Below are positions 26,455-30,951 of a stretch of 64,000 bases of DNA, piece by piece. The translations under genes and the position numbers were made by a program. The stretch's first letter is position 1. Each line of letters begins with the position of its first letter. The DNA comes from an uncultured Prevotellaceae bacterium. Its GTDB lineage: Bacteria; Bacteroidota; Bacteroidia; Bacteroidales; Muribaculaceae. A model generated the notes under the pieces. The model was not told the DNA's origin. It made no database searches and was given only the letters and a program-made list of their open reading frames with translations. The stretch covers positions 58,066 to 122,065 of the forward strand of contig ONGE01000019.1 of assembly GCA_900317325.1 (NCBI GenBank). Reading direction: 5' to 3'.

Positions 26455-28284
26455 TCAATGCGTCAGAAGGTAGTCTATCAGAGCGTTGATATCGCCTATA
26501 TCCGCATCTATTATATCATCAAGGATCAAGTCGAGAAGAGCGTTTAAGTCAGCGATGCTCACCTCGCCATCGCCATTCACGTCAAGCAGGTCGTAAATAA
26601 ATACATCCTCTTGCTGAATGATGTTATAATCCAGATAAGCACCACCAGGGCTCTCAAAGCGAACCACCACCTCGCGATAATGCAAATCTTGCGGCAGAGG
26701 CTCGGCAATCACCAAGGCATTGACGCGGTAGTTGAACTCACCATCCTCCTCGCCATCGGTGAGCTTGATGCTCAGCCAGTCGGGGACGTCGCCACCATTG
26801 CAGGTCACTGTCCACCCCTCGTCGGCGCCCTCAAACCAAGAGAAGAACTCAATGCTGCGGGAGACGATAGGCTGCTGATTTTCATCGTAGAAAACTTTCT
26901 CCATCACGCCACCTTCAGGGGTGAAGGTGTACTTGCCATTCTCCTGTTTATAGTAAAAGGTCATGAATGGATTCTCGATGTCCAGGAAAATGGACAAACC
27001 GGTCTTCATCTCACCACTAACGAAGAAATTGTTCAGACCAACCCATTCATAGTTACCGCTGAAAGTGCCATCCTCATTGTACAAACCGTGCTTGAGGTAA
27101 GCCAGTTCACCGAAACCTTCGTCTTGATGAATATTGGAGAATATCATGGCGGTGAAATTCTGCAGATTCTCCATGCCGGGATCGTTGTAGCCATCGATGG
27201 CGACAAGTATGTCGCTGTCAATCGTGGGAGTGCACTCAATCTCAAGACCGTCATCCTCTTCATAGATGGTGAAGACGATAAGGTCTTCGGTCTCAGGAGT
27301 CACAGTAGCACGGCCGTAGGCGATGAGTTCTCCGGGTTCCTCGGGCAGGACAGCCACGCCGTCCTCTTTATAGGAGGGGATACCATCGGCAATCTTGTAA
27401 ATCTTGCAGGTCATGTCAACCGGGCCAAGCACCGCGAGATTGGCAGCGTCGAGAACGACACGCTTGAGCAGATAGGGAAAGCTGGGCTTTTCAAAGGCCT
27501 GGGCAATGCCGTCGATGCACAGGTTGCTGACAACGCCGGTCTGGGCGTTGGTTACGGTGCCGCCGTTCTTGCCAAACCAGTATCCACTCGGATTGTTACC
27601 ATAGGGGTCCATGCCGCCGTAATAGCTGAAGGGAACAGCTACGTTATCATCAACATCTTCCCAGGTTAGAGTCTTTGACGATACCAAGATGGCACCACCC
27701 TCGTCGATGTCGCTGAAAACAGCGGCTGCATTGGGAGCCGACATGATATGGGCCGGATACTCATTCCCATGGGCAATTCCATGAATCTGGTAATCATACA
27801 TATTGTCGCCGTCTTTTACCCAAAGAATGGGAAACGGATATATACCGTATCCAAACTTGCAAGTGATATACTTACCGTAGCCTGTTTCCCAAACTATATC
27901 GGAGGACTTGTTCATGTGCGGGATATCCCATTCAAATTGGGTTCCACCATCATAGATGGCCTTGAACGTATAGGGGACAAAAGGCTTGGCGGCAAAGTAG
28001 GGAGCATAAAACAAACCGTCGAATGAACCGTCGGGAGCAATAAGCACCGAGCCGGGATACATGCCGGCGGGACGATTGTAATAAACCTTGTGAATCTCGG
28101 CCTTTTTGGGAGCCTTAACCGCAGGGGTGCCGGGCGCGCGCATCTGCGCTGTTTCCAGCTTGGAAGCAGTCATCCCTCGTGACTCGGGAGCGGCAACCTT
28201 ATGAGGGGATGAAACCTTGGGTTGTGCACCGGCCGAAGACGCCATGAGTGCAGCTGCCACTAAAAATAATAATACTTTTTCCAT
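26455..28284 (-). CDS. large secreted protein with degenerate C-terminal dockerin repeats, paralog 1
   Basis: 609 aa with signal peptide MEKVLLFLVAAALMASSAGAQ. I do not recognise the central region, which is beta-rich and shared along its length with the gene at 29098 (YYNRPAG, DPYGNN, GIAQAFEKPS.PYLLKRVVLD, EDDGLE.E.TPTID, GFGELAYLK, SIEFFSW). The C-terminus reads YDLLDVNGDGEVSIADLNALLDLIL, a good first dockerin calcium loop, while the second repeat (DADIGDINALIDYLL) has lost its DxNxDG loop. Dockerins bind cohesins; no cohesin is visible here, so surface or self-association roles are open. Promoter at 28326-28333. Confidence 0.75.
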   Translation of the reverse strand: MEKVLLFLVAAALMASSAGAQPKVSSPHKVAAPESRGMTASKLETAQMRAPGTPAVKAPKKAEIHKVYYNRPAGMYPGSVLIAPDGSFDGLFYAPYFAAKPFVPYTFKAIYDGGTQFEWDIPHMNKSSDIVWETGYGKYITCKFGYGIYPFPILWVKDGDNMYDYQIHGIAHGNEYPAHIMSAPNAAAVFSDIDEGGAILVSSKTLTWEDVDDNVAVPFSYYGGMDPYGNNPSGYWFGKNGGTVTNAQTGVVSNLCIDGIAQAFEKPSFPYLLKRVVLDAANLAVLGPVDMTCKIYKIADGIPSYKEDGVAVLPEEPGELIAYGRATVTPETEDLIVFTIYEEDDGLEIECTPTIDSDILVAIDGYNDPGMENLQNFTAMIFSNIHQDEGFGELAYLKHGLYNEDGTFSGNYEWVGLNNFFVSGEMKTGLSIFLDIENPFMTFYYKQENGKYTFTPEGGVMEKVFYDENQQPIVSRSIEFFSWFEGADEGWTVTCNGGDVPDWLSIKLTDGEEDGEFNYRVNALVIAEPLPQDLHYREVVVRFESPGGAYLDYNIIQQEDVFIYDLLDVNGDGEVSIADLNALLDLILDDIIDADIGDINALIDYLLTH

Positions 28285-28397: not shown

Positions 28398-28877
28398 TAT
28401 TGGTGTCCGGTAAACATCGATGATGTTAGCGGTTCGAAGAACCGATTTCAATATGAAAGACCATGCAAGAACCTCTCCGAGGTTCGCAGCTTGGTCACAA
28501 AGCAGAACGCAAATGTGCCTCGAAGAGGAACTTTTTGATTGACAAGCTTTTGACAGATATAGAAGTTCGTCTACGACGCACTTGCCACTTGATATGGCTA
28601 CCACCAAGCTGCGCTCATCTTCGATGAGTTTGCATGGTGTTTCCCATAAAAGTCGAGTCTTCGACCCGACCTGCCTCTTCGAGGCAAAAGCCAAGGCCAT
28701 GATACAGCTTAAATAGCCCCATTGGGGGGCGACAGACTGTTTGTCAATGGTTTACTGCCGCCCCGATGGGGCTTGAATGGGAGTGTGTTCGATTACAGGG
28801 GTTGCACTCGGCTTCGCCTCGTTACACCCCAGCCTATGCCCTGACCGCTCCTAACGGAGCTTTACCGGACACCAATA
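28398..28877. mobile_element. MITE-like non-coding element with 17-bp terminal inverted repeats and hairpin array
   Basis: Perfect 17-bp terminal inverted repeats: TATTGGTGTCCGGTAAA at 28398-28414 and its complement at 28861-28877. The outer TA on each side could be a TA target duplication. Inside are at least nine stem-loops: 28414-28426, 28430-28444, 28469-28485, 28518-28528, 28614-28628, 28652-28670, 28672-28686, a long one at 28715-28773, and 28847-28860. Most of the short ones have a three-base loop GAA, TTC or TCC. No transposase is encoded. I recall related hairpin text in intergenic regions of other Bacteroidales, so it is probably one copy of a dispersed repeat family. Confidence 0.75.
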
Positions 28878-29097: not shown

Positions 29098-30951
29098 TTA
29101 CATCGAGAGGATGTAGTCGATCAGAGCGTTAACGTCGGCGATATTCACCTCACCGTCACCGTTCACGTCACCGTTAGAACTCTCGTTGCCAGTCAGGATC
29201 ATGTCGATGCAAGCATTCACATCACCAATGTTTACCTCACCGTCACCGTTTACATCGAACGGGTTAACGACAGGATTACCCTGCTTGAACGTGTAATCCA
29301 GGTAAGCACCGGGGAACTCAAAGCGAACAACAGCCTCGCGATAAGGTACGCCGTCGGGCAGGGGCTCAGCAACAACCTCGGCATTAACGTGGTTGTCGAA
29401 CTCGCCGTTCTCCTCACCGTCGGTGAGGGTGATGCTCAACCAATCGGGAACGTCCTCACCGTTGCAGCTCAAGGTCCAGTTCTCATCAGCGCTCTCTACC
29501 CATGAGAAGAACTCAATGCTGCGGGTGATGAGCTGCTCCTGACCATCGTCATAGAGAACCTTCTCCATCAGACCGCCCTCGTTGGGGAAGGTGAACTCAC
29601 CATCCTCAAGATTCCAGCTGAAGGTCAAGAAGGGATTCTCAATCTCCATGAAAATCGAGAAACCGGACATCATTTCACCGCTGGTGAAGAAGTTGTTCAG
29701 ACCAGCCCACAGGTAGTGGTCAAGGTTGCCATCCTCGTCGTGAACACCATACTTGAGGTAAGCCAACTCACCGAAACCTTCGTCGTGATCTATATCACTG
29801 CTGATCAAGGCCGAGAAGTTCTTCAGGTTCTCCATGTCGGGATCGTTGTAGCCGTCAATTACAATCAGGATAGCCTCATCGATGGTGGGGGTGTACTCAA
29901 CCTCCAGACCGTCTTCCTCATCATAGATGGTGAAGATGATGTACTCATCGGTCTCGGGAGTAAGGGTTGCACGACCGGTAGCGATCAACTCACCGGGCTC
30001 ATCGGGCAGAACAACCTCATCGTTGGGAATGTAACCAGGAATACCATCAGCAAGCTTGTAGATCTTGCAAGTCATATCCACCTGGTCAAGAACCTCGAGT
30101 TCGGTAACATCCAGAACGACACGCTTGAGCAGATAGGGATAAGAGGGCTTCTCAAAGGCCTGAGCAATACCGTCGATGCGGAGCTTGCGCACTTCACCGG
30201 TCTCGGGGTTGGTCGAAGTACCACCGTTCTTACCGAACCACCAGCCATTCTCATTGTTACCATAGGGGTCGATACCACTAATGTAGGTGAAGGGACGTTC
30301 GTGGTTGTTGGCAAAGCCACCCCAGCAGAAGTTCTTGCTGGAAACCAGAATTGAACCGCCATCCATATCCGAGAAGATGTCATCGGCAGTGGGAGCAGCC
30401 ATCATGTGAGAAGGATACTTTTTACCCTCATAGTTACCAGAGAGCTGATAATCAATCAACTTGGGGGCATCAGTTACCCAAAGCACAGGTGCCTCTTCAA
30501 CAGAGTAATTCCAGGCGTAAGAAACAGTCTTGCCTTCGAGTGTCTCCCATTCGTCAGTCTTTGACTGTGAATCCCAATATTGCATATCCCATTCATAGAT
30601 GGTTTCCTCATCACCCATATCATAGATAGCCGTAAACTCATAAGGAGAATAGGGCTTGATGTGGAAATAGGGAGCAAATGCCATACCATCGGCCTGTCCA
30701 TCATAGGTCATGAACATACTGCCAGGGAAAGCACCAGCGGGACGATTGTAGTATGCATCGTGATACTCAATCTTCTTGGGAGCCTTAGCAACAACAGGGG
30801 TGCCAGGAGTGCGCATCTCCATCCTCTCCATCTTGGGAGCAGGAACCTCATGACGTGCAGGAGCAGCAAACTTCTGCGCTGAAGCCTTAAGCTGGGCACT
30901 GGCTGTAGTTGCCATAAGTGCAACAGCTGCTAAAAGTAAAACCTTTTTCAT
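29098..30951 (-). CDS. large secreted protein with two C-terminal dockerin repeats, paralog 2
   Basis: 617 aa with signal peptide MKKVLLLAAVALMATTASAQ. Paralog of the 26455 gene over its whole length. Here both dockerin-type EF-hand repeats are intact: NPFDVNGDGEVNIGDVNACIDM and then NGDVNGDGEVNIADVNALID near residues 564-615, each with the D-x-N-x-D-G calcium loop. After the signal peptide is a Pro/Ala/Lys-rich stretch (VPAPKMERMEMRTPGTPVVA). The function of the 450-residue body is unknown. A terminator at 31014-31060 separates it from the SusCD operon, so it is expressed separately; I could not find a clean TAnnTTTG box in front of it. Confidence 0.75.
   Translation of the reverse strand: MKKVLLLAAVALMATTASAQLKASAQKFAAPARHEVPAPKMERMEMRTPGTPVVAKAPKKIEYHDAYYNRPAGAFPGSMFMTYDGQADGMAFAPYFHIKPYSPYEFTAIYDMGDEETIYEWDMQYWDSQSKTDEWETLEGKTVSYAWNYSVEEAPVLWVTDAPKLIDYQLSGNYEGKKYPSHMMAAPTADDIFSDMDGGSILVSSKNFCWGGFANNHERPFTYISGIDPYGNNENGWWFGKNGGTSTNPETGEVRKLRIDGIAQAFEKPSYPYLLKRVVLDVTELEVLDQVDMTCKIYKLADGIPGYIPNDEVVLPDEPGELIATGRATLTPETDEYIIFTIYDEEDGLEVEYTPTIDEAILIVIDGYNDPDMENLKNFSALISSDIDHDEGFGELAYLKYGVHDEDGNLDHYLWAGLNNFFTSGEMMSGFSIFMEIENPFLTFSWNLEDGEFTFPNEGGLMEKVLYDDGQEQLITRSIEFFSWVESADENWTLSCNGEDVPDWLSITLTDGEENGEFDNHVNAEVVAEPLPDGVPYREAVVRFEFPGAYLDYTFKQGNPVVNPFDVNGDGEVNIGDVNACIDMILTGNESSNGDVNGDGEVNIADVNALIDYILSM

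Follow-up and report, generated by a model that had tools for sequence, protein, structure and literature searches.

The REP, BIME and REPIN repeats and their RAYT transposases (TnpAREP, class 2) are characterized in the relevant passages of PMC6006769 by inverted pairs of imperfect palindromes, found around a low-copy Y1 gene and scattered over the genome, with a family-specific pairing of gene and repeat. The same passages (Quentin 2018) give Y...Q..HH as the signature of TnpA(Y1) subclass 1.2, for which the REP entry in Table 1 is 'no', the subclass being described as having neither IS properties nor REPs. They also give GGGG[AT][CG]A[CG] as the inverted-repeat consensus of TIRYT elements. 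Nesting of REPs has been described as well: the passage concerned in Di Nocera 2013 (PMC3733652) places dimers of GTAG-15 (A. variabilis), GTAG-23 (T. roseum) and CGTC-1 (H. neapolitanus) within longer palindromic tracts. Finally, the Bacteroidales are host to BrickBuilt, a MITE of Porphyromonas gingivalis with a repeated interior, which in the part of PMC4596501 that describes it is a 23-nt tandem minisatellite.

We analyzed a stretch of 64,000 nucleotides (hereafter the window) from a gut-type Bacteroidales draft genome (G000; 44 contigs, 94% complete), and in it an intergenic element at 28398-28877. This element is, with good probability, a gene-less IS4-type MITE that carries REP-like arrays of two subclass-1.2-like Y1 clades. 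With IS4-family insertion sequences and MITEs it shares the YATTRGTGTCCGGTAAA terminal repeat, the 9-bp duplication in related copies, and the absence of a gene from an intergenic element, but its interior consists of the hairpin arrays of other transposases and not of a deleted IS4 gene. The likeness to REP/RAYT systems lies in the inverted palindromes around a low-copy Y1 gene, their dispersal, and the specific pairing of gene and repeat. However, the unit of the larger of these arrays (the A unit) is about 122 nt long and has four hairpins, whereas a REP is, in the part of the REP literature used here, a single hairpin of 20-40 nt, and many dispersed A copies lie inside DDE-type shells. Moreover, the A units are without the GT[AG]G foot (none was conserved at the four A hairpins in alignment A2, judged by eye), and the Y1 motif is Y...Q..HH where class 2 has Y...NP, both of which argue against membership in REP proper. 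The shared features with subclass 1.2, as far as the passages of PMC6006769 describe it, are the HUH and Y...Q..HH motifs, a short protein, occurrence in Bacteroidetes, and a low copy number; in contrast to the REP entry 'no' in that source, most Y1 genes studied here are flanked by inverted repeats. The REP dimers of Di Nocera 2013 are likewise nested within longer palindromes, but in the passage on them (PMC3733652) the outer palindromes are not tied to a DDE transposase, whereas the shell described here has ends of IS4 type, related copies show duplications and empty sites, and one cargo is found in several shell types. BrickBuilt differs in that its interior is a tandem minisatellite (PMC4596501, same part) and not a set of Y1-linked inverted hairpin arrays.

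An IS4-type shell with a chimeric interior

The earlier note on this DNA had proposed an inverted-repeat element with exact 17-bp ends and further copies, and both proposals were borne out. The left arm (28398-28414, + strand; T-ATTGG-TGTCCGGTAAA) and the right arm (28861-28877, - strand) are 100% complementary, and relatives of the element occur in the same genome, where the element DNA gave 21 matches and the core TGTCCGGTAAA occurs 10 times versus 0 times for the reversed pattern. Other copies with paired ends in this genome measure about 327, 323, 198 and 174 bp. The left repeat is of IS4 type (consensus YATTRGTGTCCGGTAAA), with an identical end on autonomous IS4-family elements. Autonomous elements with window-type ends were found in G048 (TIR CACTGTTGTCCGGTAAAAG, 1389 bp), in G040 (ends CATTGTTGTCCGGTAAAC and CATTAGTGTCCGGTAAA, with the perfect 9-bp duplication ATTTGGGTT), and in G006, which belongs to the same genus (CATTAGTGTCCCGTTAAA, with the perfect 9-bp duplication ACTTGCGGT). 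The protein of the G048 element combines DUF4372 with DDE_Tnp_1 and scores 221.7 bits, against an NCBI IS4-family cut-off of 115 bits. An IS4 transposase query gave no match in the window genome itself, a draft that is 94% complete.

Duplications of 9 bp were frequent among related copies. A 9-mer repeated with at most 2 mismatches was present at 20 of 59 candidate end pairs, a set that was collected with up to 4 mismatches allowed, includes chance pairs, and leaves out loci L303-L369; the corresponding share among mispaired flanks was 3.2% (p 9e-7). A TA target duplication, and with it an IS630/Tc1-like autonomous partner, had been suggested from the TA at both element ends. These TA dinucleotides belong to the TIR (Y-ATTRG), and the 9-bp duplications in related copies rule out this option, the combination of TIR and 9-bp duplication being that of the IS4 family (DUF4372 + DDE_Tnp_1). 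Empty sites were observed for two other copies of the window genome. Copy C20:278804-279116 is absent without residue in G025, G032, G006 and G024 (by eye), with a different sequence at this site in G009, and copy C20:147030-147346 is cleanly absent in G025 (junction judged by eye). Searching with the 65-bp right tail, a weak query, we found no IS4-type MITE that is without hairpin module A (described below); the tail matched in 3 of 37 genomes, every time at a known A-carrying site. In G004 there are 27 occurrences of TGTCCGGTAAA, several of them near contig ends, with IS4-type ends around an AT-rich interior (TGTCCGGTAAAAAAAGAAAATATTTTT); these probably represent a further MITE family whose many copies interrupt the assembly.

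The interior of the element is rich in secondary structure. The two strands of 28398-28877 fold with -212 and -212.9 kcal/mol, whereas shuffled sequences average -139.1 and -145.3 (z -10.9 and -11.2), and 0 of 100 shuffles folded equally well. All seven hairpins to which positions had been assigned in the earlier note are present there: 28430-28444 (GAA loop), 28469-28485 (TCC), 28518-28528 (GAA), 28614-28628 (TTC), 28672-28686 (TTC), 28652-28670 (TTC, with one stem mismatch), and a longer stem at 28715-28773 with arms AGCCCCAT/ATGGGGCT. We found that the interior is made up of two repeat modules, A and B. In module A (28414-28685), two units of ~122 nt face each other in inverted orientation. 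Its left unit (28414-28534, + strand), for which alignments, pair counts and loops also speak, is a covariance-model match (G000:C40:86479-86599, E 2e-25) with hairpins at 28414-28426 (loop GAT), 28430-28444 (GAA), 28459-28496 (inner hairpin 28469-28485, TCC) and 28513-28533 (GAA). The right unit (28562-28685, - strand; G000:C40:86627-86750, E 1.7e-26) has, on the - strand, the loops GAA, GAA, GAA and GTA. Between the units is a spacer of 27 bp (28535-28561), a place that is occupied at Y1 loci by the transposase gene: the distance between A units is 27-32 nt in 34 of 42 pairs versus 511-532 nt at 10 Y1 loci. Module B (28712-28860, - strand) represents a second inverted hairpin pair, of which the right arm and a portion of the left arm are present, with the hairpins GCCCC..GGGGC, GGCGAAGCC (GAA loop on the - strand) and GCTCCGTTAGGAGC (GTTA loop on the - strand). 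It matches the flanks of a separate Y1 clade as well as a complete B-type element at G000:C20:147030-147346.

The two genes that flank the element, 26455-28284 (-) and 29098-30951 (-), match the same relatives and look like paralogs, as had been noted before; of the accompanying dockerin assignment only the second half stood, with the 29098-30951 protein matching Pfam Dockerin_1 (E 9.5e-10) and the 26455-28284 protein having no Pfam match at 0.001. Since the locus holds a single gene in five of the seven other genomes checked, the adjacent pair looks like a local duplication. Six of these seven syntenic loci are without the element: in G006, G024, G021, G032 and G033 one gene stands in place of the two in the window, and in G009 both genes are present around a gap free of A or B. 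At these six loci no junction could be aligned because the gap DNA is too diverged, so that the clean junctions sought at homologous loci exist for the two other copies above and not for the window copy. The seventh genome, G036 (L443, 2069-2754), has both genes, and the gap between them holds an A-type element in opposite orientation beside a separate B stretch. For these reasons it looks like an independent insertion, and the same spot was apparently hit twice. No 9-bp duplication is recognizable at the window copy (best 3 mismatches), and the orthologous region of G025 (91% identity over 9.8 kb) also carries the element; the window copy is therefore older.

The comparison with G025 also bears on how the two modules came together. 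The G025 orthologue has two right TIRs 49 bp apart, and its outer right end has the tail that A-type elements of 377-380 bp carry in G024, G032, G033 and G036. The window copy is without the 49 bp between these two right ends, as expected from recombination between them at TTTACCGGACA. The window element thus appears to be an A-type element in which a B-type right half was acquired and the original tail subsequently lost.

Clade-specific arrays shared with the flanks of Y1 genes

The earlier note had raised a possible link to a REP-associated tyrosine transposase, and such a link was found. There is one Y1_Tnp (PF01797) match in all in G000, the sole Y1 gene found in this draft genome (78390-78728), and it is surrounded by A units at C29:78182-78304(+) and 78834-78957(-). 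These units are in inverted orientation and without IS4-type ends, and no outer repeat was detected at this locus by local alignment. The protein, which is 147 aa long and has an orthologue in G025, carries the motifs GNHIH and YIINQRQHH, and the nearest solved chains are the transposases 2f4f, 2fyx and 2xm3, which we take to be of IS200/IS605 type. Module B adjoins Y1 genes of another clade (e.g. G009:C11); a B-type Y1 gene was not found in the G000 draft.

Next to this single locus, we considered 70 Y1 genes from the genus and the order. In 61 of them the upstream flank and the reverse-complemented downstream flank were more alike than in all 40 shuffles; three of the nine others are without downstream sequence. 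In a tree of 68 Y1 proteins (two rows of <120 aa were left out), the 14 A-flanked and the 9 B-flanked proteins formed groups with support values of 79 and 95, respectively, where L210 was labeled 'other' as only one of its flanks matched B. Each flank type requires one change on this tree (0/500 shuffles), and each array family is specific to one Y1 clade. The Y...Q..HH signature was present in 64 of the 68 proteins. On the basis of this motif and the nearest solved structures, we regard the Y1 proteins as subclass-1.2-like. In a phylum-wide sample, from which loci with short flanks were left out, inverted-alike flanks (beyond 40 shuffles) occurred at 37 of 59 genes with the motif and at 1 of 6 without it, and among the earlier loci these numbers were 54 of 58 and 2 of 5. 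Inverted flanks are thus common with the Y...Q..HH motif, with the remark that the contrast group without the motif is small.

Several Y1 loci have additional repeats around them. The A-type Y1 genes and arrays at L242 (G005) and L203 (G030) lie inside GGGACACC/GGGACACCTGCAAAAACC-type inverted repeats, as does the A-type Y1 gene at L240 (G016) with just one end on the contig (all by eye), and the GGGACACCTGCAAAAACC-type repeats recall TIRYT elements. The A-type Y1 gene of L204 (G034), at 1407-1851, is bordered on either side by CACTGTAGCGTCTTCGAACC-like tandem repeats of ~20 bp that have the same CTTCG core. Very long inverted repeats (alignment scores 186 and 183) surround the subclass-1.2-like Y1 genes at L387 and L416 (G244).

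The A units are far more widespread than the window and the G000 Y1 locus. With the covariance model under stricter filters we detected 7 units in G000, 59 in G005, 30 in G014, 26 in G003 and 14 in G024, and 21 of 41 genomes contained A units. Outside the genus there was a single weak match in one of 16 genomes. The numbers of A units away from A-type Y1 genes were 4, 5, 6, 12, 24, 26 and 57 in the seven genomes that have an A-type Y1 gene, and thus higher than the 0-12 in 18 others (p 8e-4, by a statistic that ignores kinship, and with degenerate Y1 remnants such as G009:C13 and G002:C93 left untyped). In G036, A-bearing matches are present at ten places while no short Y1 gene was found in this genome. 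It follows that Y1 is not needed for the present abundance there, and that the shells are able to spread the cargo on their own. The A-unit core was also present in 67 stretches of named genome records, all metagenome assemblies labeled as Muribaculaceae, Prevotellaceae, Porphyromonadaceae or Bacteroidales; where the record title names a source, it points to the ruminant gut (goat, sheep, water buffalo, roe deer).

To describe the shells we scored the ends around 42 A pairs by a pattern test with a shuffled control. These pairs come only from loci that were fetched as matches and include L178, which has a shortened Y1 gene, so that the shares of the shell types are no census. IS4-type ends on both sides were present at 12 of the 42 pairs, where shuffles predict 0.75, although one of the 12 (L045) looks like chance. 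Five pairs, all of G005, have GGGACACC[TC]GCAAAA ends, and by eye an 8-bp duplication was exact in one of them and had one mismatch in another. The third pattern, GTAACTATTCAGCGATT, was present on both sides of two pairs and on one side of four, and another 12 pairs fit none of the three patterns. Plain local alignment caught only long outer repeats (6 of 42 A pairs and 0 of 10 Y1 loci), since the IS4 TIR is short. A pairs therefore occupy at least two inverted-repeat shells besides the IS4 type, that is, one cargo in different shells. The pairs at L054 (G027), L043 (G028) and L297 (G003) lie in or beside a GTAACTATTCAGCGATT shell end.

Covarying stems and strand-specific GNA loops

The earlier note had held the hairpins to be a family of units and not filler, a view that is supported by covariation of the stems. 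In 49 distinct A units we counted 193 double-change cells, compared to 55.9 in shuffles (0/500), with standard pairs in 96.1% of pair cells, and sliding the pairing partners abolished the covariation signal. The loops follow a common pattern: 132 of 196 A-unit loops are GAA, and 179 of 196 conform to GNA. In the window this holds for six of the eight A loops, the exceptions being hairpins 1 and 3 of the left unit with GAT and TCC. The GAA, TTC and TCC loops reported before are all present, but they are essentially one class rather than separate ones. Positions 28430-28495 and 28603-28668 are 71% complementary across 66 nt, so that the units with GAA hairpins on the left recur on the right in reversed orientation with TTC hairpins, TTC being GAA on the other strand; TCC is an inverted loop that reads GGA in the G025 orthologue. 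This inner loop at 28469-28485 (+) was flipped inside an intact stem (TCC in the window, GGA at L106 of G025), and comparable flips, both giving TTC, were seen in the fourth hairpin of L099 and the third of L037. Such flips suggest that the hairpins extrude or template-switch in vivo.

The loops also have a strand polarity with respect to the Y1 gene, which we scored as sense upstream and antisense downstream. The A flanks of Y1 genes contained 49 GNA versus 4 TNC triloops and those of 45 other Y1 genes 75 versus 12, whereas in distant DNA of the same loci, taken as a control, the GNA:TNC ratios were 5:6 and 12:14. Polarity was weak for the B flanks (6:3). In the phylum-wide sample no GNA polarity was observed (34 GNA versus 25 TNC), from which we conclude that the GNA rule is a feature of the lineage of the window. 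The part of PMC4686876 that deals with DNA mini-hairpins ascribes extraordinary stability to those with GNA or GNNA loops, with GCGAAGC melting at 78 C, and according to a passage in PMC8266576 a reversed loop in one REP severely impaired its cleavage by TnpAREP. A DNA loop that is strand-specific, on a stem that drifts freely yet stays paired, is as expected for the binding site of a single-strand transposase. An Rfam search of the element gave no match at E up to 1, which speaks against a known RNA family.

Alternative explanations and a possible mode of dispersal

We considered three alternatives to a MITE that carries Y1-linked arrays, all of them improbable. The first is that of an ordinary IS4-type MITE with palindromic filler inside, whose likeness to Y1 flanks would result from chance capture without any working link. 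The IS4 ends would suffice for dispersal, and the many copies in G036, where the short Y1 gene is absent, fit this as well. Filler would, however, be at odds with stems that covary across 49 units, with GNA in 179 of 196 loops, with A pairs in several different shells, and with the capture of both A and B from different Y1 clades; we therefore give this explanation little chance. Somewhat less credible still is the possibility that the A units are a structured RNA (an attenuator, a processed small RNA, or an mRNA 3' stabilizer) carried in MITEs, through which the Y1 gene would regulate itself. The covariation is of the kind seen in RNA, and the element lies between two genes transcribed in the same direction, but the loops obey the DNA GNA rule, there is no Rfam match at E up to 1, and inverted units on both sides of a Y1 gene are more readily understood as ends of a single-strand element than as a leader; RNA processing is not favored for the first two of these reasons. 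Least plausible, and hardly to be expected, is that the outer inverted repeats are TIRYT-like ends of the Y1 transposase itself, with shell and arrays as one system and IS4 irrelevant: this is in line with the TIRYT consensus given above and with the A-type Y1 genes inside GGGACACC-type inverted repeats in G005, G030 and G016 (by eye; one end in G016), but the ends of the window copy recur on autonomous IS4-family elements that have 9-bp duplications, a product not known from HUH transposition, the Y1 locus of G000 showed no outer repeat, and A pairs occur in different shells.

Returning to the IS4-type MITE with Y1-linked cargo, we propose the following course of events. An IS4-family DDE transposase (DUF4372 + DDE_Tnp_1) would act in trans and cut the YATTRGTGTCCGGTAAA ends, and insertion of the element would produce a 9-bp target duplication. 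The cargo is not filler but comprises a complete inverted pair (A) and a partial one (B) of REP-like hairpin arrays, each belonging to a different Y1 clade. When single-stranded, on the lagging strand or after extrusion, one strand of an array would be recognized by the Y1 protein via its rigid GNA triloops, and selection would preserve loop and pairing while the stem letters drift together. The arrays spread in part as passengers of MITEs, for which there are at least three types of ends, and the Y1 gene stays at low copy number. Judged from sequence comparison, the arrays are candidate substrates that the Y1 protein may bind, cut or read. The Y1 protein may also have placed the arrays in MITEs, and some part of this may be active today.

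A broader idea, which we put forward only tentatively, is that the subclass-1.2 Y1 proteins of Bacteroidota might constitute a separate REP-type system, with clade-specific arrays of several hairpins that can be read on a single strand (built in this genus on DNA-specific GNA triloops) and that are packaged in MITEs of several unrelated DDE transposases. In the open-licence literature, as represented by titles and the first parts of abstracts, we found neither a REP-like repeat for subclass 1.2 nor a REP array within an IS4-type MITE. Given the precedent in the passage of PMC3733652, the nesting of REPs itself is not new; what had no match in the titles and abstract openings searched is the linkage of such repeats to a DDE shell that brings ends and duplications of its own, to several shell types, and to subclass 1.2. 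If this idea is true, repeats of a single-strand transposase are carried by double-strand transposases. The element itself points to one class of mobile DNA that is dispersed inside the shells of another, and TnpA(Y1) subclass 1.2 gains candidate cognate repeats, by which its function becomes testable. Some 50 naturally diverged candidate substrates, in which the loop is constant and the stems vary, are suited to studies of hairpin recognition by HUH enzymes. Such nesting would also explain the presence of REP-like repeats in genomes without a cognate gene.
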